Positions 2,634 through 21,790 of a DNA stretch of 64,000 bases are shown piece after piece (the first letter of the stretch is position 1; the number at the start of each line of letters is the position of its first letter). Both the position numbers and the translations under genes were made by a program. Location of the stretch: positions 496,001 to 560,000 of the forward strand of contig NZ_PKRQ01000002.1 of the NCBI RefSeq assembly GCF_002855575.1. The letters run 5' to 3'. Under the pieces are notes generated by a model. That model was given only the letters and a program-made list of their open reading frames with translations. It ran no database searches and was not told the origin of the DNA. Origin of the DNA: Tabrizicola sp. TH137. GTDB taxonomy: Bacteria; Pseudomonadota; Alphaproteobacteria; Rhodobacterales; Rhodobacteraceae.

Positions 2634-2644
2634 CGGAGCGTTCC

Positions 2645-3619: not shown

Positions 3620-3660
3620 CCCGGTTCACCCCGCATTAAGGTTAACGCGCCCCCCCGCCC

Positions 3661-3730
3661 TCACTTTCTGTCGAAAAATATCCTCGGGGGGTGAGGCGCG
3701 GCACGCGCCGAGGGGGGCAGACAGCCCCCC
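3661..3730 (-). repeat. GAGGATATTT-box intergenic repeat, copy 1
   Basis: Between convergent glk and the esterase gene. Read on the minus strand it starts with a 7-bp GC hairpin (GGGGGGC/GCCCCCC, loop of 5; plus-strand 3712-3730), then a short second palindrome, then the box CCGAGGATATTTTTCGACAG and AAAGTGA. The box half (3661-3696) is identical over 36 nt to copy 2 at 10289-10324. It may act as a terminator for the esterase gene. Related copies are at 5053-5079, 10289-10354 and 59336-59402. Confidence 0.7.
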
Positions 3731-3748
3731 TGCAACGCCCGCCATCCC

Positions 3749-5052: not shown

Positions 5053-5079
5053 GCCGCTTCATCTTGGCCCAAATACTCA
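5053..5079 (-). repeat. GAGTATTT-box repeat, short copy 2
   Basis: On the minus strand this reads GAGTATTTGGGCCAAGATGA followed by AGC and, two bases later, the ATG of the glycosylase gene. It lacks the GC hairpin of copies at 3661 and 10289 but keeps the box and the purine-rich tail. The GAAGC tail sits where a Shine-Dalgarno sequence is expected. Confidence 0.55.
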
Positions 5080-5195
5080 TGCCGACACCAGCCACCCCGC
5101 GCAGCCGCCCAAAGTGAAAGACCCACCCCCTCCAGACATTCACCCGCGCGCATTTGTCCCTTGCCCCCGACGCGCCAGAGGATAACCCTGCATCC

Positions 5196-6413
5196 ATGAC
5201 CGACAGCACCGCGCCCACCGACTCCACCGCGAAACGCAATGTCCTCGTCCTCGTCGCCGCCCAGGCGATCCTTGGCGCCCAGATGCCGATGATCTTCACC
5301 GTGGCGGGGCTGGCCGGGCAATCGCTCGCCCCGAATGTCTGCTGGGCCACGCTGCCCATCACCGCAGCCGTCATCGGCTCCATGCTGACCGCCACGCCGA
5401 TCTCGGCCTTCATGCAGAAATACGGCCGCCGCGCAGGCTTCGCCATCGGCGCGCTGGGCGGCGGGATCGGCGGCGCGCTCGGCGCCTATGCGCTCTCGAC
5501 CTCCAACTTCGCCCTCTTCGTGATCGCCGCCCTCTTCACCGGCATCTATATGTCCGCCCAGGGCTTCTACCGTTTCGCCGCCGCCGACACCGCCTCCGAC
5601 TCCTACCGCCCCAAGGCCATCTCGCTCGTCATGGCGGGCGGCCTGCTCTCCGCCGTCCTTGGCCCGCAACTGGTCAAGCTCACCGCCGAGGCGATGGTCA
5701 TCCCCTTCCTCGGCACCTATCTCGCCATCATCGCGCTCAATGCGGTCGGCGTCTTCCTCTTCACCCTGCTCGATATCCCGAAACCCCGCCCCCCCGTCGC
5801 TGGCGCCGCCACCGGCCGCAGCCGGGCCGAGATGATCCGCACCCCCGTCATCGCCGTGGCGATGATCTGCGCCACCGTCTCCTATGCGCTGATGAACCTC
5901 GTGATGACCTCCTCCCCCCTTGCCGTGGTGGGCTGCGGCTTCACCAAGGGCAACGCGGCGGATGTCGTCACGGCCCATGTCCTTGCCATGTATGCGCCCA
6001 GCTTCTTCACCGGCCATCTCATCGCCCGTTTCGGGGCCGAGAAGATCGTCGCCACCGGCCTTGTCATCCTCGCCGGCGCCGGGGCCGTCGCCATCGCCGG
6101 GGTCGCGCTGGAGAATTTCTTCATCGCCCTCATCCTGCTCGGCCTCGGCTGGAATTTCGGCTTCATCGGCGCCACCACCATGCTCACCGCCGCCCAGGCA
6201 CAGGAAGAGAAGGGCCGCCTCCAGGGCCTGAACGACCTCGTGGTCTTCGGCGGCGTGACGCTCGCCTCCTTCTCCTCGGGCGGTTTGATGAACTGCTCGG
6301 GCGGATCGGTCCAGTCGGGCTGGCAGGCGGTCAATTTCGCCATGCTGCCCTTCCTCGTTCTCGCCGGAGGGGCGCTGATCTGGCTCGCCCTCCGCCCGCG
6401 CGAGGCGCGCTGA
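5196..6413 (+). CDS. MFS transporter
   Basis: Inner-membrane transporter of the major facilitator superfamily, 405 aa with about 12 hydrophobic segments. A basic loop between TM2 and TM3 (MQKYGRRAGFAIGALGGG) resembles the MFS motif A. ATG 5196 is chosen over an in-frame TTG at 5154 because GAGG lies about 10 nt upstream. It stands alone, converging on the Hint-like gene with a 3-bp gap, so the two transcripts overlap in their 3' ends. The substrate is not predictable. Confidence 0.85.
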   Translation: MTDSTAPTDSTAKRNVLVLVAAQAILGAQMPMIFTVAGLAGQSLAPNVCWATLPITAAVIGSMLTATPISAFMQKYGRRAGFAIGALGGGIGGALGAYALSTSNFALFVIAALFTGIYMSAQGFYRFAAADTASDSYRPKAISLVMAGGLLSAVLGPQLVKLTAEAMVIPFLGTYLAIIALNAVGVFLFTLLDIPKPRPPVAGAATGRSRAEMIRTPVIAVAMICATVSYALMNLVMTSSPLAVVGCGFTKGNAADVVTAHVLAMYAPSFFTGHLIARFGAEKIVATGLVILAGAGAVAIAGVALENFFIALILLGLGWNFGFIGATTMLTAAQAQEEKGRLQGLNDLVVFGGVTLASFSSGGLMNCSGGSVQSGWQAVNFAMLPFLVLAGGALIWLALRPREAR

Positions 6414-6416
6414 AGA

Positions 6417-6953
6417 TCAGCCCGCCAGCGCCAGAAGCCGCGCCTCGGCGGCGCTCAGGGCCGGGCGGTTGTCGCGGGCCGCATCTCCCACCGCAACCTG
6501 CAACCCCTCGACGACCAGCGCGCAGGGCGTCACCGTCTCGATCTCGAACCAGACCTCGCTCGCCGGGGCCTCGACCAGACGCAGGTTCTGCCCATCGACC
6601 AGGGCCCCCACCGGCGCCAGCGCCTCCTCGACGCCGAAATAGGCGGCCAGCCGGTCGCCCGCCACCACGATCATCTGCTCGGGCGCGAGATAGAGCGGCT
6701 CCGACCCCCGGCCCGCGCCCCGCGCCTCGCCGGACACGAACACAGCCTTGGCCCCGGCCCGCGCCACCATCACGGCGCGAAGGGCCGAAATCTCCACCGG
6801 CCTTTCCCGGCAACAGGACAGGATCTCACCAACCCGCAGCGTCTCCACCGCGCGCCATCCCGCGGGCGTCATCAACCTGGAGCCGCGCAGAAAACCGCGC
6901 GGCGACGCCGCCACTTCGACATTTACCGGAACAATGGGCGATACGATGCTCAT
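6417..6953 (-). CDS. Hint-domain-like protein, degenerate
   Basis: Cytoplasmic protein of 178 aa similar in pattern to the Hint (Hedgehog/intein) domain proteins common in Rhodobacterales. The segment GSRLMTPAGWRAVETLRVGE (residues 21-40) corresponds to the usual G-T-x-I-x-T-P-x-G-x-x-x-V-E-x-L-x-x-G-D block, and LYLAPEQMIVV to the second block that normally reads SPxHxxxV. The nucleophilic Cys/Ser at the block start and the His of the second block are both missing, so self-splicing is not expected. Start ATG 6953 is the only in-frame start after an upstream stop; its ribosome binding site is weak. Function unknown. Confidence 0.7.
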   Translation of the reverse strand: MSIVSPIVPVNVEVAASPRGFLRGSRLMTPAGWRAVETLRVGEILSCCRERPVEISALRAVMVARAGAKAVFVSGEARGAGRGSEPLYLAPEQMIVVAGDRLAAYFGVEEALAPVGALVDGQNLRLVEAPASEVWFEIETVTPCALVVEGLQVAVGDAARDNRPALSAAEARLLALAG

Positions 6954-7137
6954 TACAGTCCAGACCGCTCCGGTTCACACGGCGGCAGGTCGGGATGACC
7001 TGCAACTTCCTCCTACCGTGACAACCATCCGTGGTCTCAAACGGACGCAATTCAGGATTTTCTAGGGCATCACCCATCAATTTGAGGATATCTGTACGAA
7101 TCCCCCCGGAATGGCGCAGAGCGGCGGGAAGCCGCCA

Positions 7138-7929
7138 TCACAGACCCCCGCGCAGCCCCGCGCGCAGCAACCCCCAGCGCCGCGCGAATTCCGACTGGCC
7201 CAGACCGCCCGCCGCCACCCGCCCCGGCTCCCGCGCCGCCTGCCGCAGGATCGCTTCCGCCTGCCATGCGGCGATCGTGGCCGCCCGCGCAGGCCCCATC
7301 CGCCGCACCCCCTGCCGCGCCGCCTCCAGCCGGGCCAGCCCCTGCCGCGCCAGCGCCGCCACCGCCTCCGGCCGGCCATCGACCAGCGGCACCCGCCCCC
7401 GCGCCTCCAGCTCCGGCACCGCCCGTAGGAATCCCGCCAGGCCCGCCGCCCAGCCCGCCGCGCGCAGCGCCGCCTCATCCGCTCCGCTTGCCCCCAGCGC
7501 CCGCCCCGCCAGCCACATCACCCCGCCGCCCGTGTCCTCCAGATAGGCCGCCAGCGCCGCCCCATCCTCGAACGGCGCGCGATAGACGTCCCAGCGACGC
7601 GCCTCCACCAGCGCATCCAGCGCCGGCAGCGGCAGCCCAGCCTCCGCGATCAGCGCCGCCAAAGGCCCTGCCACCTCATGCGCCCGGGCAGGCCGCCCCT
7701 CTGCCGCCTCGGCCACCACATCCCGCCACCATTGCAGCCGCATTTCGGCAATCATCGGCTCCTGCGTCACCCAGGGCGCGCGCGCCACTTCCAGATTGAA
7801 GGCATAAAGGACAAATAGCCGCCCCCGCGCCGCAACAGGCGCCGCCATCACGGCGGCAAAGCGGTCGGCATCGCCCCGCTCCACCAGCGCCGCACAGGCC
7901 CCGATCGCCGCCGGGCTCAGCCCTTCCAC
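7138..7929 (-). CDS. Squalene/phytoene synthase family protein
   Basis: 263-aa alpha-helical protein of the squalene/phytoene synthase superfamily (the NDUFAF6-like branch). FVLYAFNLEVAR, MRLQWWRDVV and the Y-L-E-D-T-G-G block match the family pattern, but the Asp-rich DXXXD metal-binding motifs of true prenyl synthases are not intact. That makes carotenoid synthesis unlikely and a structural or assembly-factor role possible. I start it at GTG 7929, which overlaps the end of the methyltransferase gene and lies near the conserved N-terminus (LSPAAIGACAALV); an ATG at 7977 would give 16 more residues. It is the last gene of the cimA-methyltransferase transcript. Confidence 0.72.
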   Translation of the reverse strand: MEGLSPAAIGACAALVERGDADRFAAVMAAPVAARGRLFVLYAFNLEVARAPWVTQEPMIAEMRLQWWRDVVAEAAEGRPARAHEVAGPLAALIAEAGLPLPALDALVEARRWDVYRAPFEDGAALAAYLEDTGGGVMWLAGRALGASGADEAALRAAGWAAGLAGFLRAVPELEARGRVPLVDGRPEAVAALARQGLARLEAARQGVRRMGPARAATIAAWQAEAILRQAAREPGRVAAGGLGQSEFARRWGLLRAGLRGGL

Positions 7930-8642
7930 CGCGCCACCGTCAAGAGATACCCGGTTTCCGCCCGCACCCGCCGCCACAGCGCCGCCTCCTCCGCGCAGAT
8001 ATCCAGCATCGCCGACAGCCGCGCATCCGCACCGGCCCGCAGCGCAGCAATCCGCGCCTCCATCGGCCCGTAATACGCCTCCCAGGCCGCATCGCCCAGG
8101 GCCCGCACCCCAAGGCTCTCATACCCCGCATCCGCCACGGCCGCCGCGATCCCGGCCGCATCCCGCGTCGGATACCCCTCCCAAAACCCCATCGCCGCCG
8201 CCGACGGCGCATCCGCAAAGAAGCAGGGTTCCGAAAAGGCCAGCACCCCGCCCGGCCTCAACGCCCCCGCCATCCGCGCCAACCCCGCCTCCAGCCCCAG
8301 GAAATACAGCGCCCCGGCACACCAGATCAGGTCGAAAGGCCCCGCCGTATGGCTGGCCAAAGCCGCCATATCGGCCTCTTCCACCACCACCCGCCCCTCA
8401 CCGGCAAAGCGCGCCCGCATCTGCGCCACGAAACCCGGATGGCTGTCGATGGCCAGAACCCGCGCCCCCGGCACAGCCAGCAGCGCCGCCACATCGCCCC
8501 CGGCCCCGGCCCCCGCATCGCAGATCGCCGCCCCCTCCGGCACCCCGGCCAAAGCCAAGGCCCAGGCCACGTCGCCCGCCTCCCCCGGCCCCTCGCGCGG
8601 CAGGTCGCTATGAACGGCGAAAAAGCTCTCCCAATCCATCAC
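7917..8642 (-). CDS. Class I SAM-dependent methyltransferase
   Basis: Cytoplasmic Rossmann-fold methyltransferase, 241 aa. Motif I is ICDAGAGAGGDVAALL, the acidic end of beta-2 is VLAIDSHP, and the motif around FDLIWCAGALYFLG corresponds to motif IV. These give SAM binding; the acceptor is not identifiable. The GTG at 8640-8642 and the following ATG 8637-8639 both overlap the cimA stop codon, so translation is coupled to citramalate synthase. It overlaps the phytoene-synthase-like gene downstream. Confidence 0.82.
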   Translation of the reverse strand: MMDWESFFAVHSDLPREGPGEAGDVAWALALAGVPEGAAICDAGAGAGGDVAALLAVPGARVLAIDSHPGFVAQMRARFAGEGRVVVEEADMAALASHTAGPFDLIWCAGALYFLGLEAGLARMAGALRPGGVLAFSEPCFFADAPSAAAMGFWEGYPTRDAAGIAAAVADAGYESLGVRALGDAAWEAYYGPMEARIAALRAGADARLSAMLDICAEEAALWRRVRAETGYLLTVARWKG

Positions 8643-10273
8643 GCGCCAATGCCCACCGGCTGCCCCACATCGCGGATCAGCTTCCAGTTGATCGCATCCA
8701 GCAGCGCCTCGAAACTGGCATCCACGATATTCGCGCTCACCCCCACGGTGGACCAGCGCCGCCCCCGCGCATCCTCGCTGTCGATGATGACCCGCGTCAC
8801 CGCCTCGGTGCCGCCCTGCGTGATCCGGACCTTGAAATCCACCAGCTTCATGTCGTCGATCACCGCCTGATAGGGGCCAAGGTCCTTGCCCAGGGCCTTG
8901 GCCAGCGCGTTCACCGGCCCCCGGTCCGTCCCCGTCTCATCCATCGACTCGCTGACCGACAGCATCTTCCGCTCGCCGATCTTCACCACGACCACGGCCT
9001 CGGACAGGCTGACCATCTCGTTATACTTGTTCTTCCGCCGCTCCACCGTCACGCGATAGCGCTTCACCTCAAAGAACTCCGGCAGCAGCCCCAATTCCGC
9101 CCGCGCCACCAGTTCGAAACTCGCCTGCGCGCCGTCATAGGCATAGCCCTGATCCTCGCGCGCCTTCACCACCTCCAGAATCCGCCCCAGCCGGGCATCC
9201 TTCGGATCGACCTCGATCCCCGCCGCCGCCAGCCGCGCCCGCAGGTTCGACTGCCCGGCCTGATTGCTCATCGGGATGACGCGCTCATTCCCCACCACGC
9301 CCGGATCGACATGCTCATAGGTCGAAGGGTCCTTCAGGATCGCGCTCGCATGCAACCCCGCCTTATGGGCAAAGGCCGACGCCCCCACATAAGGCGCAGA
9401 CCGCAGCGGCACGCGGTTCAGGATATCGTCCAGTTGACGGCTCACCTGCACCAGCCCCGCCAGCGCCTCGCGGCTTACCCCCACCTCGAACCGGCTCGCA
9501 TAGGGTTCCTTCAACAGCAGCGTCGGGATGATCGTCGTCAGATTCGCATTCCCGCAGCGCTCCCCCAACCCGTTCAAGGTTCCTTGGATCTGCCGACAGC
9601 CCGCATCCACGGCCGCCAGCGAATTTGCCACCGCATTCCCGGTATCGTCATGGCAATGGATGCCCAGCCGATCCCCCGGCACGCCTGCCGCGATCACCTC
9701 GGCCACCACGCGCCCCACCTCGGCGGGCAGCGTGCCGCCATTCGTGTCGCAAAGCACCACCCAGCGCGCCCCCGCCTCCAGCGCCGCGCGCAGACAGTCC
9801 AGCGCATAGGCCGGATTGGCCCGATAGCCGTCGAAGAAATGCTCCGCATCCAGCAGCGCCTCGCGCCCCTTGGCCACAGAATGCGCCACGCTCGCCCGGA
9901 TCGCCTCGCGGTTCTCCTCCAGCGTGCATCCCAGCGCGGTGCTCACATGAAACTCATGCGTCTTCCCCACCAGACAGACGGCAGGCGTCCCCGCATCCAG
10001 AACGGCCGCCAGCACATCATCATTCTCCGCCGACCGCCCCACCCGCTTGGTCATCCCAAAGGCCGTCATCCGCGCCCGCGTGCGCGGCGCATCGGCAAAG
10101 AACTCGCTGTCGGTCGGGTTCGCCCCCGGCCAGCCACCCTCGATGTAATCCACGCCCAAGGCATCCAGCGCCGCCGCAATCACCCGCTTCTCGGGGGTGG
10201 AGAACTGCACCCCCTGCGTCTGCTGCCCGTCCCGCAGCGTGGTGTCGAACAGATACAGCCGCTCGCGGGTCAT
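8639..10273 (-). CDS. cimA: (R)-citramalate synthase
   Basis: Condenses pyruvate and acetyl-CoA to citramalate, an entry to isoleucine synthesis independent of threonine. The 544-aa length and domain order fit the long CimA type: an N-terminal HMGL-like TIM barrel with FDTTLRDGQQ (residues 9-18) and GIHCHDDTGNAVANSL metal-binding region, then a C-terminal LeuA-type allosteric domain (about residues 400-540). Isopropylmalate synthase and homocitrate synthase are the alternatives; the TTLRDGQQTQGVQFS start and overall length favour CimA. The start lies directly behind an intergenic repeat whose tail (GAAGGCGAGGGG) supplies the ribosome binding site. First gene of a three-gene overlapping set. 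Confidence 0.9.
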   Translation of the reverse strand: MTRERLYLFDTTLRDGQQTQGVQFSTPEKRVIAAALDALGVDYIEGGWPGANPTDSEFFADAPRTRARMTAFGMTKRVGRSAENDDVLAAVLDAGTPAVCLVGKTHEFHVSTALGCTLEENREAIRASVAHSVAKGREALLDAEHFFDGYRANPAYALDCLRAALEAGARWVVLCDTNGGTLPAEVGRVVAEVIAAGVPGDRLGIHCHDDTGNAVANSLAAVDAGCRQIQGTLNGLGERCGNANLTTIIPTLLLKEPYASRFEVGVSREALAGLVQVSRQLDDILNRVPLRSAPYVGASAFAHKAGLHASAILKDPSTYEHVDPGVVGNERVIPMSNQAGQSNLRARLAAAGIEVDPKDARLGRILEVVKAREDQGYAYDGAQASFELVARAELGLLPEFFEVKRYRVTVERRKNKYNEMVSLSEAVVVVKIGERKMLSVSESMDETGTDRGPVNALAKALGKDLGPYQAVIDDMKLVDFKVRITQGGTEAVTRVIIDSEDARGRRWSTVGVSANIVDASFEALLDAINWKLIRDVGQPVGIGA

Positions 10274-10288
10274 GCGCGCCCCTCGCCT

Positions 10289-10354
10289 TCACTTTCTGTC
10301 GAAAAATATCCTCGGGGGGTGAGGCCGAAGGCCGAGGGGGGCAGACAGCCCCCC
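10289..10354 (-). repeat. GAGGATATTT-box intergenic repeat, copy 3
   Basis: Fills the 100-bp gap between cysS and cimA. On the minus strand: hairpin GGGGGGC/GCCCCCC (plus-strand 10336-10354), a small GGCC-TTC-GGCC-type palindrome, then CCGAGGATATTTTTCGACAG and AAAGTGA, running straight into the cimA ribosome binding site. Its box half is identical to copy 1 (3661-3696) over 36 nt. Confidence 0.75.
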
Positions 10355-10373
10355 TTCTGCGACGCCAGCCCCC

Positions 10374-11765
10374 TCACAGCAACCCCTCCAGCTTCGCGAC
10401 ATCGAATCCCGGCCCGGGCAGCAATTCCACCCCCGCCTTCGACATCCGCACCTCCACCCCCGCCGCCAGCAGCGCCGCCTTCATCGCATCGACCGGGGCA
10501 AAGTCCTTCGTCTCCATCGCCGCCGCCCGCAGCGCCGCCAGCCGCGCGGCAAAGGGCGCAAGGTCCACCCCCGCCTCGGCCCAGCCGCCCATATGATCCT
10601 CCAAGAGACCCATAAGCCCAGCCGATGCCTTCAACCCCGCCGCATCCCCGGTGGCCGCCAGCGCATGCAGTTCCGCAATCGCCCCCGCCGTGTTCAGGTC
10701 GTCCGCCAGCGCCGCCACCACCGCCTCCGACGGCACCGACGGCGCGACGCCCGCCACCATCCCCCGCCATTTCCGCAAGGTAGCCTCCGCCTGCGCTGCC
10801 TTCTCCGCCGTCCAATCCATCGGCTTGCCGTAATGCGTCCCAAGGAACACCATCCGGATCACCTCTCCCGGTATCCCCTGATCCAAGAGATCCCGCACCG
10901 TGAAGAAATTGCCCAATGACTTGGACATCTTCTTCCCTTCCACCTGCAACATCTCGTTATGCATCCAGACGCGGGCAAAATCCGCCTCCGGATGGGCACA
11001 GCAGCTTTGCGCCACCTCATTCTCGTGATGCGGGAATTGCAGGTCGATCCCGCCGCCATGAATGTCGAAACTCGCCCCCAGCAGCGCAAGGCTCATGGCC
11101 GAGCATTCGATATGCCACCCCGGCCTCCCCCGGCCCCAGGGGCTCTCCCAACCCGGAAGCGACGCATCCGACGGCTTCCACAAGACGAAATCCATCGGGT
11201 CTTCCTTGAAGGGCGCCACTTCCACCCGTGCCCCCGCGATCATGTCATCGACCGACCGCCCCGACAGCCGCCCGTATTCCGCGAAAGACCGCACCCGGAA
11301 CAGGACATGCCCCTCCTTCGCATAGGCATGGCCCCGCGCGATCAGGTCCACGATCATCGCGATCATCTGGCCCACATACGCCGTGGCCCGCGGCTCATGC
11401 GTGGGCCGCAGCGCGCCGAGGGCATCCATATCGTCATGATACCAGCGGATCGTCTCTTCCGTCCGCTCCGCGATCAACTGCTCCAGCGTCCCCGCCGCCC
11501 CCGCCTCCTTCCGCGCAAGCGCCGTGGCGTTGATCTTGTCATCCACGTCGGTGAAGTTGCGCACATAGGTCACATGCTCCGGCCCATAGACATGGCGCAG
11601 CAGCCGGAACAACGTGTCGAACACCACCACCGGCCGGGCATTGCCCAGATGCGCGCGGTCATAGACGGTCGGCCCGCAGACATAGACCCGCACATTGCCT
11701 GCGTCGATCGGGGCGAAGACCTCCTTCGCCCGCGTCCTCGAATTGTGCAGCCGGATCGTCACCAT
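10374..11765 (-). CDS. cysS: Cysteinyl-tRNA synthetase
   Basis: Charges tRNA-Cys with cysteine. The 463-aa length is normal for the family. Class I signatures: [16 protein letters not shown] (residues 29-44, with the HLGN form of HIGH) and [10 protein letters not shown] (KMSKS). Zinc ligands are Cys30, the Cys in HIECS, and the HHENE region. I start it at ATG 11765, which follows GGAAGGGG by about 9 nt and begins MVTIRLHNS as in homologues; the open frame continues 30 codons upstream into non-conserved sequence. The gap to cimA is filled by an intergenic repeat. Confidence 0.96.
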
Positions 11766-12086
11766 GTCCCAAACCCCTTCCCGGCCCGCCGTCACCGCAG
11801 CCAATCGCCCCTCCGGCGCGGGTCTAGCAACTTCGTCTTTCCCTGGGAATGACAAGAAGGCCCGCGCGACCGAAGGTCAGCGCGTAATGCAGCAGATGCA
11901 GAGGATGCCCGTCCTGTTCATGCCCCATGGCTACAGCCATTCGCCCCGCCTGCCAAGCCCCCCGGCAGCCGTCCACCGTCGCGGCCCCCATCCGCCCCAT
12001 CCACCGCGCCATGCGACGGGACGGTCGGACATGCCCGAACCCACGCCCCCTCCCGCCCCACGCCACCTGCCCCCGCACGCCCACCC

Positions 12087-12110
12087 GTAGGATGGGCCAT
12101 CCGGCCCATC
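12087..12110 (+). repeat. GTAG-headed REP-like hairpin 1
   Basis: GTAG (12087-12090) followed by the perfect stem GATGGGCC / GGCCCATC with loop ATCC. This is the layout of REP elements recognised by RAYT (REP-associated) transposases. A second copy with identical stem is at 12181-12204, and similarity between the two copies extends about 15 bp upstream (CCCCGCACGCCC). Confidence 0.65.
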
Positions 12111-12180
12111 GCCCCCGCCGTTCCGCGCCTTCCACCAGACCCTCACGCGCGCCTTCCCACCTTCCCCCGCACGCCCCCGC

Positions 12181-12204
12181 GTAGGATGGGCCATCCGGCC
12201 CATC
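12181..12204 (+). repeat. GTAG-headed REP-like hairpin 2
   Basis: Identical in stem and loop to the element at 12087-12110, in the same orientation, 94 bp further on. Together they resemble a two-unit REP cluster. No RAYT transposase gene is in this window. Confidence 0.65.
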
Positions 12205-12275
12205 GCCCCCCCACCTGGCCCATCCCGGCGCACCCCGTTAACCTTGACACCTCCGGGCCACGCCGCGCGCCGCGT

Positions 12276-12319
12276 GACCACAGTTTGCGGCACAGAACGC
12301 GGCACAGCGCACGGCACAG
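12276..12319 (+). repeat. 12-bp-period repeat array A (4 units)
   Basis: Four octamers spaced exactly 12 bp apart: GACCACAG (12276), CGGCACAG (12288), CGGCACAG (12300), CGGCACAG (12312), separated by variable 4-nt linkers. The first unit is degenerate, as in arrays B (12403-12446) and C (31875-31918, minus). Too short and regular for a CRISPR; function unknown. Confidence 0.8.
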
Positions 12320-12402
12320 GCCATGACACCGCCACCGCGCCCAGCCCGGACCGGCGCCACTTGCACTTTTTCAACACTTTCCCACGCCACCGCCCGCATC
12401 GT

Positions 12403-12446
12403 GGCCACAGTTTGCGGCACAGTTCACGGCACAGGAAACGGCACAG
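12403..12446 (+). repeat. 12-bp-period repeat array B (4 units)
   Basis: GGCCACAG (12403), then CGGCACAG at 12415, 12427 and 12439, again at a strict 12-bp period with linkers TTTG, TTCA, GAAA. It ends about 100 bp before the PLP decarboxylase start and points towards it. The first linker TTTG is shared with arrays A and C. Confidence 0.8.
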
Positions 12447-12548
12447 CCGATTCCACCCAAATCCCTGATTTCCCGCAGGGATTTTCTCCCCCTTGCAGCC
12501 CCCCGCAATCCCGGCTCATCTCGCAGCGGGAGAAGGACAATCATCACC

Positions 12549-13928
12549 ATGGATCACGACGACCTCCGCCACTGGTCGAAAATCGCCGCCGACTGGGCGC
12601 ATGACTACCACGCAGGCCTGCGCAACCGCCCCGTCCGCGCCCCCCTGACCCCCGGCAGCATCGCCGCGCAACTGCCTGATGCGCCACCGGAAGATCCCGA
12701 ACCGCCCGAGGCGATCTTCGCCGATTTCGCCCGCATCATCCCGCCGGGTCTGACCCATTGGCAGCATCCCCGCTTCTTCGCCTATTTCCCCGCCAATGCC
12801 TCCCCCGCCTCCATGCTGGCCGAACAGCTCGCCAATGCCATCGCCGCGCAGGGCATGCTCTGGCAAACCTCCCCGGCCGTGACCGAGGTGGAACAGGTCA
12901 TGATCCGCTGGCTCGCCCAGTCCCTCGGCCTTCCCGCCACCTTCACCGGCACGATCCATGACAGCGCCACCACCGCCACGCTCTCGGCCATCCTGACCAT
13001 GCGCGAACAGGCGCTGGGCTGGGCGGGCCTGCAACAGGGCCTCTCCGGCCAGCCCCGCCTGCGCCTCTATGCCAGCGCCGAAACCCATTCCTCGGTGGTC
13101 AAGGGCGCCCGCATCGCCGGGATCGGTCAGGAAAATCTCGTGAAGATTCCGACAGATGCGACGCTGTCCATGAAACCGGGCGCATTGGCCGGGGCCATCG
13201 CCGCCGACCGCGCGGCGGGCTTCCTCCCCGCCGGCGTCATCCTCTGTGCAGGCGGCACCTCGGTCGGGGCCTTCGACCGCATCGCCGATTGCATCGCGGT
13301 GGCCAAGGCCGCGGGCCTCCCCGTCCATGTCGATGCCGCCTGGGCCGGCAACGCCATGATCTGCCCGGAATTCCGCACCCTCTGGGCAGGGGTGGAGGGG
13401 GCCGACAGCATCGTCTTCAACCCCCATAAATGGCTCGGCGCGCAATTCGATTGCGCCGTCCAGTTCCTCGCCGATCCGGGGCCGCAGGTCCGCACCCTCG
13501 GCCTCCGCCCGACCTATCTGGAAACCGCAGGCCGGGAAGAGGTCACCAATTTCAACGAATGGACGGTGCCACTGGGGCGGCGCTTCCGCGCCCTTAAGCT
13601 CTGGTTCACCCTTCGCGCCTATGGTCTGTCCGGTCTGCGCACCCGGATTCGCAACCATGTGGATTGGGCGCGGCAGGCCCGCGATGCGCTGGCGCGGCTC
13701 TCCGGCGTGACGATCACCACGGAACCCTCGCTCTCGCTCTTCACCTTCGCCCTCGCGACGGATCAGGAAACGGAACGCTTGCTCACCCGCATCAACGATG
13801 ATGGCCGCATCTACCTGACCCAGACCCGTCACGCGGGCCGCTATGTCATCCGCGTGCAGGTGGGCCAATTCGATTGCACGGCCGAAGATGTTGCCCTTAT
13901 CCCGCAGGTCGTGGCGGAACTCATGTGA
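12549..13928 (+). CDS. PLP-dependent amino acid decarboxylase (group II, AADC/GAD-like)
   Basis: Pyridoxal-phosphate enzyme of 459 aa, the size of aromatic-L-amino-acid decarboxylases. The PLP lysine is Lys294 in FNPHKWLG; HVDAAWAGNA is the Asp that contacts the pyridine ring; AETHSSVVKGARIAG and the N-terminal WQHPRFFAYFPANASP match the group II fold. The substrate (tyrosine, DOPA, tryptophan, glutamate or another acid) cannot be assigned. It is monocistronic, preceded by the repeat-rich spacer with arrays A and B, and followed by a strong hairpin shared with the convergent OMP gene. Confidence 0.87.
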   Translation: MDHDDLRHWSKIAADWAHDYHAGLRNRPVRAPLTPGSIAAQLPDAPPEDPEPPEAIFADFARIIPPGLTHWQHPRFFAYFPANASPASMLAEQLANAIAAQGMLWQTSPAVTEVEQVMIRWLAQSLGLPATFTGTIHDSATTATLSAILTMREQALGWAGLQQGLSGQPRLRLYASAETHSSVVKGARIAGIGQENLVKIPTDATLSMKPGALAGAIAADRAAGFLPAGVILCAGGTSVGAFDRIADCIAVAKAAGLPVHVDAAWAGNAMICPEFRTLWAGVEGADSIVFNPHKWLGAQFDCAVQFLADPGPQVRTLGLRPTYLETAGREEVTNFNEWTVPLGRRFRALKLWFTLRAYGLSGLRTRIRNHVDWARQARDALARLSGVTITTEPSLSLFTFALATDQETERLLTRINDDGRIYLTQTRHAGRYVIRVQVGQFDCTAEDVALIPQVVAELM

Positions 13929-13953
13929 AAAAGGCGGCCCGTGACAGGCCGCC
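13928..13953 (-). terminator. Bidirectional terminator, mainly for the OMP gene
   Basis: Perfect 7-bp stem GGCGGCC (13933-13939) / GGCCGCC (13947-13953), loop of 7. On the minus strand it is followed by TTTTT (13928-13932), a typical intrinsic terminator for the OMP gene; on the plus strand it follows the decarboxylase stop immediately. Confidence 0.85.
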
Positions 13954-13982
13954 CTTAACACTTCGTTAACCCTTTGCGGGCG

Positions 13983-14570
13983 TCAGAACCGGAACCCCAC
14001 CCGCGCGTTCAGCGTGGTCGCGTCGATATCCGTCCCGCTGCCGACGAAATTGTCGAACCGGTGCTCCATCAGCTCCGCGCCCAGCGTCATCTGGTCGCTC
14101 ACGGCATAATCCACCCCAACCCCGAGGCCATAGCCATTGTCGGCCCCCAGCGTCGTGTCGGCCCGCACCGCCGCCACCGTGCCATAGACCAGCGCCGGAC
14201 CCATGTCATAGCCCCCGATCAGCTTCAGCCGCGAGATGCTGTCCAGCGAGGTGCCGCCGCCCAAGTCTATGTTCGCCCAGTCGAAATTCCCCTCGACCCC
14301 GGTCACGAACTGTCCGAAATCGGCGCGATACCCTGCAAAGAGGCCCGCCGTCTCGCCATCGCCCGCCAGCGCGCCCGTCGATCCGACATCGCCATAGCCA
14401 AGCTGACCCCCGACATAGAGCCCGCTCCAATCCGCCGAAGGGGCCGCCACCGGAACCGGCGCCGGGGCGACCATCGGCTCTTCGGCCACCTGCACCGGGC
14501 CACCCGCCAAAGCGGGCATCGCGCCCAAAGTCACGGCCGCTGCCGCCATCGCCATGCTGCGTTTCATCAT
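13983..14570 (-). CDS. Outer-membrane beta-barrel protein (OmpA/Omp25-like)
   Basis: Small outer-membrane protein, 195 aa. The N-terminus MMKRSMAMAAAAVTLGAMPA is a signal peptide with probable cleavage after ALA (about residue 22), followed by a Pro/Ala-rich linker and then alternating beta strands beginning DWSGLYVGGQLGYG. It ends in phenylalanine (ARVGFRF), the BAM recognition signature of outer-membrane barrels. ATG 14570 is preceded by GGAGA; the longer frame from 14603 adds a charged stretch that would spoil the signal peptide. It resembles the porin-like opacity/Omp25 family; no pore specificity can be inferred. Confidence 0.83.
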   Translation of the reverse strand: MMKRSMAMAAAAVTLGAMPALAGGPVQVAEEPMVAPAPVPVAAPSADWSGLYVGGQLGYGDVGSTGALAGDGETAGLFAGYRADFGQFVTGVEGNFDWANIDLGGGTSLDSISRLKLIGGYDMGPALVYGTVAAVRADTTLGADNGYGLGVGVDYAVSDQMTLGAELMEHRFDNFVGSGTDIDATTLNARVGFRF

Positions 14571-14805
14571 CTGTCTCCTGTGCCTGCTGCGCGGCCCTCC
14601 CACCCGCAGGCTGCGGGCGACAGGCCGTCTCGTGCCCCAGACCTGCGCCCCTTTCCCCTGTGCGGCAAGGCTGGGTCGCAGCTTGGTGATGGCCCGTGAG
14701 GGTCTTGCGCAGGAACTGGCGCAGCCTTCCGCCCGGTCCCGGCCAGAATTCGCCTATCCCCTCAAAATCACGTGGGAATTTCTCGCATTCGCGTGACTGA
14801 AACGG

Positions 14806-16626
14806 CTACGCCCGCTCGGCCAGGGCCAGCCATTCCTCTTCCGCCGCCGCCAGCGCCTGCTGCCGTTCCGCTATCGCCTCCGATGCCTTGCGGAACTTCG
14901 CCGGCTCCTTCGTGAACAGCTCCGGGTCCGACAGAAAGTCGCCAAGCTTGGCAATCTCGGCCTCCAGCCTCTCGATCACCGCCGGCAGGGCCTCCAGCCG
15001 CTTGCGCTCGGTAAAGCTCAAACCCTCCGCCCGGGCCGCCTCTGCCCCGGCCGCCTCGGCCCTGACCTCCGCCCGCGCGGCCTCGCCCCGCCCCGTCCGT
15101 CCCGCCTCTTCCGCCACGGCGGGCCGCTGCGCCGCATAGTCCGACCAGCCCCCGGGATAGACCGTCGCTCGCCCTTCGCCTTCCAGCGCGACCGTGGCAG
15201 TTGCCACACGGTCGATGAAATCGCGGTCATGGCTCACCAGCAGGACCGTGCCGTCATATTCCCCCAGCACATCCTGCAACAGATCCAGCGTTTCCACATC
15301 CAGATCATTCGTCGGTTCGTCCAGAATCAACAGGTTGGACGGTTTCGCCATCAGCTTGGCCAGCAGAAGCCGCGCCTTTTCGCCGCCCGAAAGGCTCTTG
15401 ACCGGCGCCCGCGCCTGCCGCTCGTCAAAGAGAAAATCCTTCAGATAGGCCACCACATGGCGCGGATTGCCCCGCACCATGACCTGATCGGAATTGCCCG
15501 ATACCCGCATCATCGGATCGCCCGTCAGGTTCTCCCACAGGCTCGCCTCGGCATCCAGTTGCGCGCGGGTCTGGTCAAAGACCGCGATCTCCAGATTTGT
15601 GCCAAGGCTCACCGCCCCCGCATCGGGTGCGACCTCGCCCACCAGCATCTTCAACAGCGTCGTCTTGCCCACCCCGTTGGGGCCGACAAAGGCCACCCTG
15701 TCCCCGCGCAGCACCCGCAGGTCAAACCCCTTGACGATCACCTTGTCGGCAAAACGTTTTTCCAGCCCCTTCGCCTCGATCACCCGCTTGCCGCTGGTGG
15801 TCCCGGCTTCCAGTTCCAATGCCGCCGTCCCCTGACGGCGGATCATCGACGCCCGCTCGTCGCGCAGCGCGGCCAGCGCCCGGACCCGGCCCATGTTCCG
15901 CTTGCGCCGCGCGCTGATGCCCTCGACGGCCCATTTCGCCTCAGCCTTGATCTTGCGCTCCAGCTTGTGGCGCGCCTCATCCTCTTCAGCCCAGACGGTT
16001 TCGCGCCATTCCTCGAACCCGTCGAATCCCGCTTCCCGCCGCCGCACCTCGCCCCGGTCGATCCAGAGCGTGGCCTTGGTCAGCGCCTTCAGAAAGGCGC
16101 GGTCATGGCTGATCAGGACAAAGGCGGTGCGCGTCTCGGAAAGCTGCGCCTCCAGCCATTCGATGGCCTGGATGTCCAGATGGTTCGTCGGCTCGTCCAG
16201 CAGCATCAGCTCCGGCGCCTCGGCCAGCAGCTTGGCCAGCGCCGCCCGCCGCCTCTCCCCGCCCGAGGCAGTGGCGACCGGCGTCTCGGGCCGGAACTTC
16301 AACCCTTCGGCCACCATCTCCACCCGATAGGCCTCGCCTTCGGGAAGCTGGCTGGCCGCATAATCCCCCAAGGTGGCAAAGCCGGAAAGATCGGGGTCCT
16401 GCTCCATATAGCCGACCACCACGCCGGGCGGCACCACGCGGCTGCCCTGATCGGGTTCCACCAGCCCCGCCATCACCTTCATCAGGGTGGATTTCCCCGA
16501 CCCGTTCCGCCCCACAAGGGCCACCCTGTCGCCCGGCTGCACCACAAGGTCCAGCCCGTCGAAAACGGGATTGCCGCCAAAGGTCAGGGTGATACCGGAA
16601 AGCTGAAGAAGAGGTGCGCGTGCCAT
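14806..16626 (-). CDS. uup: ABC-F family ATPase (Uup-like)
   Basis: Soluble protein of 606 aa with two fused ABC ATPase domains and no membrane segments, hence ABC-F. First Walker A GRNGSGKS (residues 39-46), signature ASGGERRR and Walker B LMLLDEPTNHLD; second Walker A GPNGVGKT, signature LSGGEKAR and Walker B LLILDEPTNDLD. The linker is rich in Arg/Lys, and the C-terminus (last about 90 residues) is a charged Ala/Glu coiled coil, which favours Uup over EttA or YheS. Uup-like proteins act on the ribosome and in genome stability. It stands alone on the minus strand. Confidence 0.88.
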   Translation of the reverse strand: MARAPLLQLSGITLTFGGNPVFDGLDLVVQPGDRVALVGRNGSGKSTLMKVMAGLVEPDQGSRVVPPGVVVGYMEQDPDLSGFATLGDYAASQLPEGEAYRVEMVAEGLKFRPETPVATASGGERRRAALAKLLAEAPELMLLDEPTNHLDIQAIEWLEAQLSETRTAFVLISHDRAFLKALTKATLWIDRGEVRRREAGFDGFEEWRETVWAEEDEARHKLERKIKAEAKWAVEGISARRKRNMGRVRALAALRDERASMIRRQGTAALELEAGTTSGKRVIEAKGLEKRFADKVIVKGFDLRVLRGDRVAFVGPNGVGKTTLLKMLVGEVAPDAGAVSLGTNLEIAVFDQTRAQLDAEASLWENLTGDPMMRVSGNSDQVMVRGNPRHVVAYLKDFLFDERQARAPVKSLSGGEKARLLLAKLMAKPSNLLILDEPTNDLDVETLDLLQDVLGEYDGTVLLVSHDRDFIDRVATATVALEGEGRATVYPGGWSDYAAQRPAVAEEAGRTGRGEAARAEVRAEAAGAEAARAEGLSFTERKRLEALPAVIERLEAEIAKLGDFLSDPELFTKEPAKFRKASEAIAERQQALAAAEEEWLALAERA

Positions 16627-16677
16627 GGCGGCTCAGGTATGCGGGGCAGGCTGCAAGGTCAACGCCTCTTGCTCCCG

Positions 16678-17397
16678 CTAGCGTGCATCCCCCCGCAAAA
16701 GGCGCGCCCGCGCCGGCGGAACCGCGGCGATTTCCACGCCGGTACAGACATGCAGCGTCCCCAGATCGCGGTCCACCACCGCGTGATCACTGACCCAGCC
16801 CCCCATCGCCAGATAGCTGCGCAGCAAGGGCGGCATCTGCACCATGGCCCGCCGTGCCTCATGGGGTGCTGGCGAAAGGTTGATCGTCTCGAACGCCTTC
16901 CGCCCGGGCCGCAACCGCTCCGGCGCCAGATGCCGGGCTGCAAGGGCTGCAAAAGCATCGGCATAGGGCGCAGGGTCCGTCCCCGGAAAGGACGAACAAC
17001 CGAAGAGCAGCGCCACCCGCTCGGCATCCACCCGGCGCGTCAACGCCGCCCAAGCAAGGCGGAGCGCATCCGGATCACGCCCCCCCGCCGCCATGCAGAA
17101 CCGGCCAACCTCCAGAAACGGGCCGGAAATTTCGCGAAATGCGGAAAGATCGTAGAATTGTCCGGTATAGGTCCGGCCCAGTTCCGCCCCGTCCGACAAA
17201 AGCTGAAGGCGGCAGGTGCCAACCAGATCACCGCCTGCCGCCGTCTCGATCAGCAGGTGGTCGCATTGCGCGTCGAACGCATCGGCATCCAGCCCCGCCG
17301 TCCCGCGAAAGGCATGATGCCGCAGACGTTGCGCCGCCCGCAGATCCGCCGTCCCTTCCGCCCATCGGACGCGATAGCGCCCCTTGCTGAATTCCAT
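16678..17397 (-). CDS. Ornithine N-acyltransferase-like protein (OlsB family)
   Basis: GNAT-fold acyltransferase of about 239 aa. RLRHHAFRG near the N-terminus, the DHLLIETAAGGDLVGTCRL strand pair and FLEVGRFCMAAGGRD match the OlsB family, which N-acylates ornithine with 3-hydroxy fatty acids from ACP in ornithine-lipid synthesis. No OlsA lies next to it in the window, so the pathway assignment rests on family resemblance. The start is ATG 17397; an in-frame GTG two codons upstream (17403) is possible, and neither has a strong ribosome binding site. Confidence 0.78.
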   Translation of the reverse strand: MEFSKGRYRVRWAEGTADLRAAQRLRHHAFRGTAGLDADAFDAQCDHLLIETAAGGDLVGTCRLQLLSDGAELGRTYTGQFYDLSAFREISGPFLEVGRFCMAAGGRDPDALRLAWAALTRRVDAERVALLFGCSSFPGTDPAPYADAFAALAARHLAPERLRPGRKAFETINLSPAPHEARRAMVQMPPLLRSYLAMGGWVSDHAVVDRDLGTLHVCTGVEIAAVPPARARLLRGDAR

Positions 17398-17504
17398 GCC
17401 CACACCGCTTGCCGCTTGGCTGACCGAAGCGCAAAGCCTAGATATGAAGCGGGGACAAGAGCCGGGGCAAGGCCCCGCAACAGCCGCAAGGAAGGATCAG
17501 TCTG

Positions 17505-17897
17505 ATGGACAAGGTGGTGAAATCCGATGCCGAATGGCGGTCGCAGCTTTCGGACCTCGCCTATCGCGTAACGCGCAAACACGCCACGGAACGCGCCTTC
17601 ACGCATGACAATTTCCCCAAGGCGCCCGGCACCTATCGCTGCATCTGCTGCGATGCCCCTCTGTTCTCGGCGCGCAACAAATTCGACAGCGGCACGGGCT
17701 GGCCCAGCTTCTGGCAGCCCATCGACCCTGAAATGGTCGGGGAACAAGAGGATCGGACCCTCTGGATGCGGCGGACAGAGGTTCATTGCAACCGCTGCGA
17801 CGCCCATCTCGGCCATGTCTTCCCGGACGGCCCCCCACCGACCGGACTGCGCTACTGCATCAACGGCGTGGCGCTGACCTTCGATCCCGAGGAGTAA
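17505..17897 (+). CDS. msrB: Peptide-methionine (R)-S-oxide reductase
   Basis: Reduces methionine-R-sulfoxide in proteins, 130 aa. Structural zinc is bound by two CXXC pairs (Cys46/Cys49 and Cys95/Cys98). The catalytic cysteine is Cys118 in GLRYCIN, and [11 protein letters not shown] plus [18 protein letters not shown] are the family signatures. AAGGAAGG precedes ATG 17505. No MsrA domain is fused. Cytoplasmic, as there is no signal peptide. Followed by a long hairpin that overlaps the end of bamE. Confidence 0.97.
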
Positions 17898-17903
17898 GCT
17901 TCT

Positions 17904-17932
17904 GATACCGGGCCGCGCAGGCGGCCCGTATC
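17904..17932. terminator. Hairpin between convergent msrB and bamE
   Basis: GATACCGGGCCGC (17904-17916) pairs with GCGGCCCGTATC (17921-17932), one bulged C, loop GCAG. The right arm covers the bamE stop codon (TGA on the minus strand, 17931-17933). No T-run, so termination would be weak or Rho-assisted. Confidence 0.6.
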
Positions 17933-18416
17933 AATCTCCGGTGATCACGCCCGGCGCAATGCGGCCAAAGCTGCCCAGAAGCTGCTGGATCAGGCTAAGC
18001 CCCTTCACGCTCGATTCCGTCACGCGGCGCGACAGGGGCACGACTTTCCCACGCTCCAGCCCGAATCGTTCGATGTTCTGGACGGTGCCGTTCTCGCTGA
18101 AGGTGATCGAAACGACCTGACGGTCGATCTCACGCGGCTCGAAGGCGCCGCGATATTCCCACCGGCTTTGCACATAGAACCAGCCGACATCGTTCAAGAG
18201 GCCCGAGGCCGACGGACGTCCCACCTTCTCGGTCACCGTCTCGCGCGTATCCACGCCGACCTCCACCAGTGCCAGATCGGCATCGGTCGGAACATAGCCG
18301 TGGTTGCGATAGAGCGTGGAGCAGGCGGCCACCGCAACAAGGACCAGACCCACCATCCCGGCCCGCAGGATGCGGGCGGCACCCGAAAGGGCCGTCATCT
18401 TGCCGTAGAACCCCAT
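17931..18416 (-). CDS. bamE: Outer-membrane assembly lipoprotein BamE
   Basis: Lipoprotein subunit of the BAM complex that inserts beta-barrels into the outer membrane. The 161-aa protein has a signal peptide ending in the lipobox VAAC (Cys32), then YRNHGYVPTDADLALVEVGVDTRE, which resembles the BamE/SmpA start, and a conserved beta-rich core (WFYVQSRWEYRGAF; VVSITFSENGTV). ATG 18416 is preferred over the longer frame from 18479 because it gives a normal lipoprotein signal and has a GGGTGGGA site upstream. Divergent from the DUF177 gene. Confidence 0.88.
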   Translation of the reverse strand: MGFYGKMTALSGAARILRAGMVGLVLVAVAACSTLYRNHGYVPTDADLALVEVGVDTRETVTEKVGRPSASGLLNDVGWFYVQSRWEYRGAFEPREIDRQVVSITFSENGTVQNIERFGLERGKVVPLSRRVTESSVKGLSLIQQLLGSFGRIAPGVITGD

Positions 18417-18628
18417 TCCGTTCCCACCCTGCCTCTGCCCTGCCCGTCTTGTCTCGCACGGGCGCAGCACATATGGCATACACCATATCCTGCGCGGCTG
18501 CTTTCCTTCGGCTTACAGAAGGATCGGCCGCACTTCAAGAATGCAAACAGCCGAGCCGGGATCGCAACCGCGACCGCACAGCCGAATCCGCCAGCCCCGA
18601 TCCCTGCCCCTGCCCCGGATGACCCATC

Positions 18629-19195
18629 ATGACCGCCGCTCCCACTGACCAACCGCAGTTCAGCCATCCCTTGCGCAGCGCCACGCTTTCGTCGCGCAAA
18701 CCCACCCGTTTCGACCTGCGCCCCGATCAGAGCACGCGGCGCGCGATGGCCGAACAGCTTGGCCTGCTGGACCTTCCGGCCTTCCGATTCACCGGCGAGA
18801 TCCGGCCCGAAGGCCGGCATGATTTCCTCCTCGAAGGCAACCTGACCGCCGAAGCCGTTCAGCCCTGCGCCGTGACCCTTGCTCCGGTCCTGTCCCGGAT
18901 CGCCGAGGCCGTCCGGCGCCGCTATCTTGCCGACTGGCAGGAACCGGAAGGCGACGAGGTGGAGATGCCGGAAGACGACACTCAGGAGGCGCTGCCCGAG
19001 GTGATCGACCTCGCGCTTGTTGCGATGGAGGCCCTGGAACTTGCCCTGCCGCTCTACCCGCGCGCCGAAGGTGCGGAACTGGGCGAGGCGGTCTTCGCCG
19101 CCCCCGGGACAGCCCCGCTGCGCGATGACGACCTGCGCCCCTTCGCCGGACTTGCCGCCCTGAAAGCGCGGCTCGACGGTTCGCAGGACGGTTGA
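18629..19195 (+). CDS. DUF177 / YceD family protein
   Basis: Acidic cytoplasmic protein, 188 aa, of the DUF177 (YceD) family. The conserved block is LEGNLTAEAVQPCAVTLAPV (about residues 68-87), here with only one of the usual cysteines, followed by the typical acidic stretch EPEGDEVEMPEDD and E-V-I-D-L-A. YceD proteins lie immediately upstream of rpmF in most bacteria, as here; plant and bacterial homologues are linked to 23S rRNA accumulation. Its own promoter would lie in the 212-bp gap with bamE. Confidence 0.88.
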   Translation: MTAAPTDQPQFSHPLRSATLSSRKPTRFDLRPDQSTRRAMAEQLGLLDLPAFRFTGEIRPEGRHDFLLEGNLTAEAVQPCAVTLAPVLSRIAEAVRRRYLADWQEPEGDEVEMPEDDTQEALPEVIDLALVAMEALELALPLYPRAEGAELGEAVFAAPGTAPLRDDDLRPFAGLAALKARLDGSQDG

Positions 19196-19227
19196 AACCG
19201 CTCTGCACCGCACTGCAACAAAGGGGC

Positions 19228-19255
19228 TTGCGCGCGCAGGAATTCCGGCTATGTT
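19228..19255 (+). promoter_or_regulatory. Candidate promoter of rpmF
   Basis: TTGCGC (19228-19233) and TATGTT (19250-19255) with 16-nt spacing, about 105 bp before the rpmF start. It fits the relaxed sigma-70 consensus of alphaproteobacteria. It would give a leader of roughly 95 nt. Confidence 0.4.
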
Positions 19256-19359
19256 CCGCGCCTCATCAGATGGCAGGTACCGGCTCGCGCGGAATGTGGG
19301 CAAACCGCTGTCCGCAATAGGAAAATCAGGGGCCTGTCCCCGCTACCCGAGGTTGAGAC

Positions 19360-19566
19360 ATGGCTGTCCCTCAGAACCGAGTCACCCGTTCGCGCCGCAA
19401 CATGCGTCGCGCCCATGACGCTCTCGTCGCTGGCAATCCGCAGGAATGCTCCAACTGTGGCGAGCTGAAGCGTCCGCATCACGTGTGCAGCGCCTGCGGT
19501 CACTATGACGCGCGCGAAGTCGTGGCGACGGCGAAAGAGATCGACCTGGACGAGGACGCGGCGTAA
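19360..19566 (+). CDS. rpmF: 50S ribosomal protein L32
   Basis: Small zinc-ribbon protein of the large ribosomal subunit, 68 aa. [20 protein letters not shown] is the standard L32 start, and [20 protein letters not shown] carries two CXXC pairs. It is followed after 24 bp by plsX, the conserved order rpmF-plsX-fabH. The N-terminus is highly basic for rRNA binding. Confidence 0.98.
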
Positions 19567-19590
19567 GCCGCATCCAAGACGCCCTGCCCG

Positions 19591-21692: not shown

Positions 21693-21790
21693 CGCCGCAG
21701 CCGTGCATCAAATGCACGCCGCAAGTGGTTGATATTGACTCGTTTCTCCAAACGGCTCACTCTCGCGTGAAATCCCGGGGGGGCCTTGAC

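Follow-up and report, generated by a model that had tools for sequence, protein, structure and literature searches.

What are the short rows of repeated octamers that lie upstream of a pyridoxal-dependent decarboxylase gene in Tabrizicola sp. TH137, and do they serve that gene or the chromosome? In the window, by which we mean the whole 64-kb stretch of DNA analysed here (64,000 nucleotides), array 1 (12276..12319, plus strand) reads GACCACAG-TTTG-CGGCACAG-AACG-CGGCACAG-CGCA-CGGCACAG, with units at 12276, 12288, 12300 and 12312. Array 2 (12403..12446, plus strand), spaced 127 bp from it, reads GGCCACAG-TTTG-CGGCACAG-TTCA-CGGCACAG-GAAA-CGGCACAG, with units at 12403, 12415, 12427 and 12439. An earlier reading of the letters, here called the sequence-only reading, had described two four-unit octamer arrays phased at 12 bp, with 4-nt linkers of which the first is TTTG, and both coordinates and sequence bear this out. 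It had also reported a third array of equal design; an array does lie at 31875..31918, but its units are less regular than claimed, and it is on the minus strand, which was absent from that reading (from 31918 to 31875: GGCCACAG-TTTG-CTGCACAG-AAAG-CGGCACAA-CATG-CGGCACAA). When up to 2 mismatches are allowed, CACAG-N7-CACAG-N7-CACAG is found 9 times in the window, once (at 7139) outside the three arrays, compared with a shuffle mean of 0.07, and none of 100 shuffles reached 9. A TTAA-containing stretch, GTTAACCTTGAC (12237..12248, plus strand, from sequence), lies upstream of array 1. The neighbours of arrays 2 and 3, respectively the decarboxylase gene (12549..13928, plus strand; PF00282) and a semialdehyde dehydrogenase family gene (30772..31800, minus strand; Pfam match), which we take to be argC, are not considered part of the element.

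Several other features of the window were noted. Between array 2 and the decarboxylase gene, at about 12460-12484, an inverted repeat (AATCCCTG...CAGGGATT) followed by TTCT looks by eye like an intrinsic terminator. Intergenic repeats of the GTAGGATGGGC and GTAGGGCGGGG types, on either strand, occur at 12087, 12181 and 31981, close to the arrays, and similar sequences adjoin several other arrays. A AAAATCTTCGAAGATTTT palindrome is present at 43599; bases ~485-534 of an array-locus query, which hold a similar palindrome, matched many places in most of 19 genomes of the genus (among the matches listed), and a second family of dispersed repeats, palindromic in kind, seems to exist. A tRNA gene (23114-23188) is the sole Rfam match in the window at gathering thresholds.

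The arrays recur throughout the genome of the window (G000; 4.66 Mb, 38 contigs). Genome-wide, GGCACAGNNNNNGGCACAG has 59 exact matches and its reversed control 0; similarly, GGCACA-N6-GGCACA-N6-GGCACA with up to 2 mismatches has 163 matches and its control 0. From this genome 68 stretches were taken, 67 around sites among the matches listed and one other, and these hold 73 arrays of at least three units each. An array consists of 3-4 direct repeats, sometimes 5, with a period of 12 bp in G000. Subtype A runs ...GCGCTGCGT-GGCCACAGTTTG-C(G/T)GCACAGnnnn-CGGCACARnnnn-CGGCACAG-CCG(T/A)TTTC, and subtype B starts with TTGTATGTACACTTTG-CTGCACAG. The linkers are non-random, TTTG being the first in most arrays. 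TTAA is present within 60 bp 5' of 50 of the 73 arrays and 12-72 bp 3' of 23, against a background of 0.75% of 60-bp windows (400 kb of C22, the contig of the window), an excess which may in part be due to the intergenic location of the arrays, the background being mostly coding DNA. What is special is the array, not the octamer, because isolated CGGCACAG is neither in excess nor clearly polar: outside arrays, the 460 kb of C22 from 400 to 860 kb hold 31 single octamers versus about 36 expected (both strands, whole stretch), 19 of them on the C-rich strand and 12 on the other.

Arrays can also stand side by side. Among the matches listed, 20 adjacent pairs from five species were measured (excluding L160, at 115 bp, and L176); 12 are spaced 114-117 bp apart and the remaining 8 at 95, 105, 126, 127, 128, 137, 149 and 163 bp. 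Periods of 10 to 12 bp all fit the phase of these spacings, and a 10.5-bp period fits only weakly once the main cluster is set aside (8 pairs, p ~0.03); helical phasing of neighbouring arrays is only suggestive. In the orthologous tandem pairs L088 and L183, aligned by first unit, the spacing is 116 bp in both. On a larger scale, strict arrays in the relative G104 occur on average once per 56 kb, and more evenly than random placement would give (CV 0.69 versus a null mean of 0.97; p 0.0004 in 5000 simulations).

By crude codon-usage gene calls all 73 G000 arrays examined are intergenic, the smallest distances to a gene being 15 and 0 bp. Flanking genes are convergent around 30 arrays, codirectional around 30 (17 along the array, 13 against it) and divergent around 13; for comparison, these loci and the window have 209 gaps of 80 bp or more in all (those with arrays counted in), and 39 of them are convergent. 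The sequence-only reading had assigned the arrays to the downstream gene. This assignment is not supported, with 30 of the 73 lying in convergent gaps and with orientation tracking strand asymmetry, not gene strand, as described below; the position upstream of the decarboxylase gene looks incidental. It is therefore improbable that the family consists of operators or leader-RNA elements for adjacent genes. The window arrays do lie upstream of two genes, and 30 of the 73 face a gene start; nevertheless, as many lie between convergent genes, which argues against promoter elements as a class, and an operator would be expected upstream of gene starts, a position to which arrays with 30 convergent and 13 divergent settings (by the same crude calls) do not keep. 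Folding of the three window arrays on both strands gave six z values from -2.2 to +0.9, the lowest for the minus strand of array 1, and the Rfam search of the whole window at gathering thresholds matched a tRNA only and no array. An RNA element was rejected for the window arrays on these two grounds. Of the two causes first proposed, a bound protein or an RNA structure, the protein is the simplest.

The arrays are kept in related species. When 40 regions of G104, taken for their arrays, were compared with the 67 G000 array loci, 33 aligned well (summed bits >3000) and formed 36 locus pairs, and 7 matched none of the 67, all loci having been chosen for holding arrays. The two species are about 85% identical, and 35 of the 36 pairs keep the orientation of the array relative to its flanks, one being inverted; the ortholog of array 2 is G104 locus L158, at which a single array was found. 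It had been proposed that arrays inside genes, or lost from close relatives, would speak against function; the 73 examined lie in no called gene, and arrays occupy the same places in a relative. In the 35 pairs compared without gaps (inverted pair excluded), most unit-core positions are 97-100% identical, partly by construction, as both sets were found via their cores. Single positions in units 1 and 2 are only 46% and 49% identical, and flanks are mostly 50-65% identical. Identity in the last linker is 11-63%, lower at several of its positions than in the flanks; at many G104 sites it is now AACAG before GGCACA, and CGGCACANAACAGGGCACA has 75 exact matches.

Further away, the units themselves change. 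In G207 and G208, at two sites read by eye, the 12-bp register is kept but the units are CTGCAC, and a CTGCAC-type pattern matches 125 times in G208 (control 1). The G000-type pattern has 147 matches in G104, 50 in G198, 104 in G202 and 138 in G205, and 0-7 in the other 14 genomes of the genus. A two-unit pattern is found in 19 of 198 genomes of the family (57 matches in G000, 0-3 in the others), and an exact 31-bp pattern recovered 20 stretches from GTDB contigs, all from one MAG, 'Rhodobacteraceae bacterium isolate Clear-D3', in a scan from which records of the window's own genome were maybe left out. In addition, TGTGCATCnnn with an 11-bp period occurs in outgroups within the genus (G199 25, G209 22, G212 13 and G214 12 matches, some of which look coding by eye; controls 0) and in 7 of 293 genomes from other genera (G249 118, G032 84, G278 51, G084 39, G063 34, G091 26, G130 9; controls 0 except for 1 in G032), against 0-5 in the other 286. 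The 44 such arrays that were read come from G249, G084, G063, G199 and G209 and from single loci of G063, G130 and G091, with G032, G278, G212 and G214 left out; matches up to 300 bp from the region middle were used (except at L332), so that L336 and L339, whose regions stop where their contigs do, contributed no array. The 11-bp and 12-bp arrays may be homologous, to judge from the single site at which both are found (site 2, in G199 and G209), from the upstream TTAAC shared there and from the shared polarity.

This conservation bears on two further origins. Chance, slippage or low-complexity repetition has nothing in its favour beyond the repetition itself and is refuted; the earlier opinion that slippage is not responsible is upheld by the shuffle and reversed-pattern controls, the variable linkers between conserved cores and the orthologous conservation, and Tandem Repeats Finder lists five other rows and no array. 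A formerly mobile repeat of MITE or REP type, which entered the chromosome with a strand preference and has since become fixed, would explain the many dispersed copies and the two subtypes with some flanking sequence in common, and strand-biased insertion is known for some mobile elements. We consider it unlikely given that positions are common to the 36 G000/G104 locus pairs, 35 in the same orientation, that cores are conserved while flanks diverge, that a given site can carry different units in different species without a change of register (two sites, by eye), and that one array compared by blastn with 72,556 plasmid records gave no match. In viral contigs the 12-bp pattern occurs in 44 stretches and the 11-bp pattern in 2; inspection of sequence and open frames by eye shows the 44 to be mostly other kinds of repeat, often coding. 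An array-like CGGCACA triplet with 12-bp spacing is present at L396 1659, on a viral-collection contig which is possibly host DNA labelled viral.

What array orientation follows is the local strand composition. In G000 the array lies on the locally C-rich strand at 66 of 67 loci (GC skew of the surrounding 5 kb in array orientation; mean -0.156), and regression of the skew gives an intercept of -0.159 +/- 0.007 and a gene-strand slope of 0.025 +/- 0.012; the skew in array orientation depends little on gene strand. As CGGCACAG has equal G and C, octamer composition does not force this result. Similarly, 50 of 55 arrays in G104, under a loose array definition, have negative skew in array orientation. 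In G208 (one 4.225-Mb contig) all 30 loci among the matches listed, with 21 distinct arrays, agree with skew, and in further stretches of this genome each single array matches the skew sign of at least one side, L265 being near zero. The 11-bp arrays of other species and genera lie on the C-rich strand in 41 of 44 cases. Within the window, arrays 1 and 2 lie in a domain with a C-rich plus strand (1..19000; skew -0.08 to -0.32 per 1-kb step), and array 3, on the minus strand, lies in a domain whose plus strand is mostly G-rich (19001..64000; skew up to +0.23, with 5 of 45 1-kb steps slightly negative, to -0.05). The border near 19000 is sharp, the skew jumping from -0.154 to +0.011 between adjacent 1-kb steps. 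It is the first of four sign changes in 460 kb of C22, at about 515, 595, 651 and 677 kb, and the array strand changes alongside.

Could this orientation simply be that of the replication arms? FtsK-orienting polar sequences (KOPS), which PMC13342612 describes as polar, chromosome-wide and oriented by replication arm, were used in the form GGGNAGGG as a view of the arms that is independent of skew. Their switches in G104 lie near 0.85 Mb (dif-like) and 2.31 Mb (origin-like), the arms being drawn from a sample of 40 loci with a single locus beyond 2.42 Mb. Of the 73 strict arrays on contig C1, 59 point towards the KOPS-inferred origin; 2 of the 75 strict G104 matches are on the smaller contig C3. 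Array orientation in G208 likewise fits two arcs (59 of 73 among the matches listed, versus 52 for the best of 500 shuffles); a skew switch at 4.14 Mb was dropped as the origin of that genome, KOPS giving it no support. The exceptions to the arm rule are local patches in which skew and array flip jointly and KOPS do not. For example, between 1.945 and 2.544 Mb of G208 KOPS are 87 forward and 4 reverse in 11 stretches, and arrays there are 6 plus and 5 minus. On C22 of G000, a sharp switch of KOPS lies at about 455 kb and thus outside the window, from 38 forward and 6 reverse at 400-460 kb to mostly reverse at 460-860 kb; this is a candidate dif position, and skew is negative on both sides of it. 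None of the four C22 skew switches, including that near 19000 in the window, has a KOPS switch, and the arrays follow the skew. By KOPS arm, window arrays 1 and 2 agree and array 3 disagrees. When the G000 array loci are taken together, 140 KOPS occupy the strand opposite to that of the array and 45 share its strand.

The arrays might cause the local skew or only mark it. On C22, within the territory of each array, skew on the 5' side weakens with distance, from -0.167 at 0-5 kb through -0.130 and -0.114 to -0.084 at 15-20 kb and -0.056 at 25-30 kb, with few and uneven bins beyond; the 3' side has no steady fall (-0.130, -0.114, -0.111, -0.157, -0.098). The 5' decay may partly reflect distance to the sharp domain borders. 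Skew is stronger 5' than 3' in G208 (n 13; -0.129 versus -0.070; p 0.008) and around 11-bp arrays (n 40; -0.131 versus -0.099; p 0.009), arrays with too little flank having been excluded (1 of 14 and 4 of 44), as well as at both window sites (-0.245 versus -0.156; -0.139 versus -0.047). The difference is absent over C22 400-860 kb as a whole (10 arrays, p 0.6), and close in, up to 2.4 kb from the array (67 arrays), it is if anything the 3' side that has the stronger skew (-0.223 in the first 200 bp).

Comparisons of the same site between species add to this picture. At L065 (G000) and L157 (G104), an array-bearing piece of about 108 bp has been inverted in place (108 bp aligned on the minus strand, 81% identity) between collinear flanks, with about 220 bp of extra DNA beside the inverted array in G104, and skew in the same gene frame goes from +0.116 to +0.010. 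In G104 the inverted array is in line with its KOPS arm, and in this one case the fall could thus be due to the arm alone. Two near-identical tRNA-like copies (by eye; L065 2652-2833) adjoin the array inverted in place and may favour rearrangement. At the tpiA site, among the loci of 18 species read by eye, the 11 with an array have locus skew of -0.104 to -0.180 and the 7 without -0.073 to +0.081. At a second orthologous site skew is -0.121 to -0.175 in ten array-bearing species and about -0.10 in two whose arrays have the 11-bp period; in the seven species that have no array there it is -0.143 (G200), -0.109 (G206), -0.085 (G214), -0.081 (G212), -0.031 (G211), -0.009 (G203) and +0.017 (G210), a weaker trend than at tpiA. 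G200, in which no array was seen here, has arrays elsewhere, and in G206 the array types are not in excess. Both comparisons follow phylogeny and are not independent. In G104, arrays in the minority orientation (n=11) have a mean skew of -0.071, with 9 negative and 2 of the wrong sign, and majority arrays (n=34) one of -0.149, with 33 negative; the weaker minority skew fits both a sum of array and arm effects and the decay of old inversions. Overall, the 5' decay, the 5'/3' bias, the tpiA site and the L065/L157 inversion suggest a link between the array and whatever causes the skew.

We regard the arrays as probably being bound polar sites of the chromosome rather than devices of gene control, a view that comes from sequence comparison. 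The joint change of sequence at many sites points to a dedicated, putative binding protein, which would bind each array either as a head-to-tail oligomer along the repeats or through several DNA-binding modules. Rows of direct repeats at 11 or 12 bp would suit head-to-tail protein assembly, as in DnaA arrays and iteron centromeres, and unequal modules, or co-evolution with one protein, are suggested because the last linker has changed species-wide at a fixed position. The bound array could then start a directional process, most likely unwinding or fork- or helicase-like loading, which would travel towards the 5' side of the array, away from the origin, and expose the complementary strand. Repeated exposure and deamination of C would leave the array strand C-rich over roughly 10-40 kb, and the observed sign of the skew would follow because the exposed complementary strand would lose C. 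On whether the arrays themselves cause the local strand bias we are almost evenly divided, leaning slightly against. The full proposal is more speculative and we put it forward only tentatively: dispersed polar arrays would launch a directional process, by unwinding or in the manner of a fork, whose effect on mutational strand asymmetry would extend over tens of kb and override the replication arm, much GC skew would be made by dozens of local sites and not by one origin, and a rapidly changing multi-module protein would read the arrays.

Against this causal proposal stands a strong rival account, though one that we also hold less likely than not, in which the arrays are oriented by replication (for segregation, condensation or a fork-related role), the skew patches are old inversions that have not relaxed, KOPS have been restored in them by selection, and the arrays do not cause skew. 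The 59 of 73 strict C1 arrays of G104 in agreement with the KOPS arms, the two-arc fit of G208 (among the matches listed) and the weaker skew of the minority patches in G104 speak for it. It sits less well with the finding that most minority arrays of G000, G104 and G208 still have skew of the opposite sign around them, with the unchanged skew at the C22 KOPS switch, and with L065/L157, where the array alone was inverted and skew changed, although there the arm could explain the change too. Moreover, skew is weak (-0.073 to +0.017) at both compared sites in G210, G203 and G211, genomes in which the 12-bp pattern has 3, 7 and 1 matches (controls 1, 1 and 0) and the 11-bp pattern 0, 1 and 0.

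The direction of replication is commonly read from GC skew. If the causal proposal is true, orientation that tracks local skew independently of the KOPS arms would make skew something that local sites can set; even on the tamer reading, the arrays are a conserved polar chromosome element of Rhodobacteraceae. No paper describing such arrays was found among the open-licence PubMed Central texts searched, and the arrays lack those features of KOPS, AIMS, operators, structured RNAs and mobile repeats for which they were tested.

Among known systems, KOPS resemble the arrays in being polar, chromosome-wide and oriented by replication arm. However, KOPS are single 8-mers, GGGNAGGG, which occur separately in these genomes, whereas the arrays are tandem and intergenic, with units CGGCACAG, CTGCAC or TGTGCATC; membership was rejected on the wrong 8-mer and on the mixed arrays (6 plus, 5 minus) where G208 KOPS are 87:4. 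Architecture imparting sequences (AIMS) are strand-biased and thought to order the chromosome (PMC5993296). They are abundant 8-mers whose bias rises towards the terminus, whereas isolated array octamers are neither in excess nor clearly polar and the arrays are mixed in the KOPS-strict part of G208. AIMS membership was rejected on the isolated CGGCACAG, 19 versus 12 by strand and without excess in C22 400-860 kb.

Iteron centromeres offer a further comparison, the unit of tubC being 12 bp long. In tubC and parC, a row of short direct repeats is bound by an oligomer of TubR or ParR that wraps, or is wrapped by, the DNA (PMC5016525). Each of these occupies one locus only, that of tubC being upstream of the cognate tubRZ operon, whereas the arrays here are dispersed; Pfam matches of 8 window genes are to metabolic, tRNA-synthetase, LysR and outer-membrane genes, and no linked centromere system was seen among them. 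DnaA-box arrays are another row of this kind, found at one origin per chromosome and built from a 9-bp box, consensus TTWTNCACA, that hardly changes between bacteria. At oriC such boxes form rows of same-orientation sites, with four low-affinity sites 2 bp apart in the example given in PMC6727663. With a 9-bp box, this gap gives a period of 11 bp. The unit consensus of G000, G104 and G208, compared by eye, departs from that of the DnaA box; the units of the present arrays change between species, and the DnaA box hardly does. Finally, the CTCF and PRDM9 sites of animals are polar composite sites read by a multi-module protein, and PRDM9 sites change jointly with their protein; these systems are eukaryotic.
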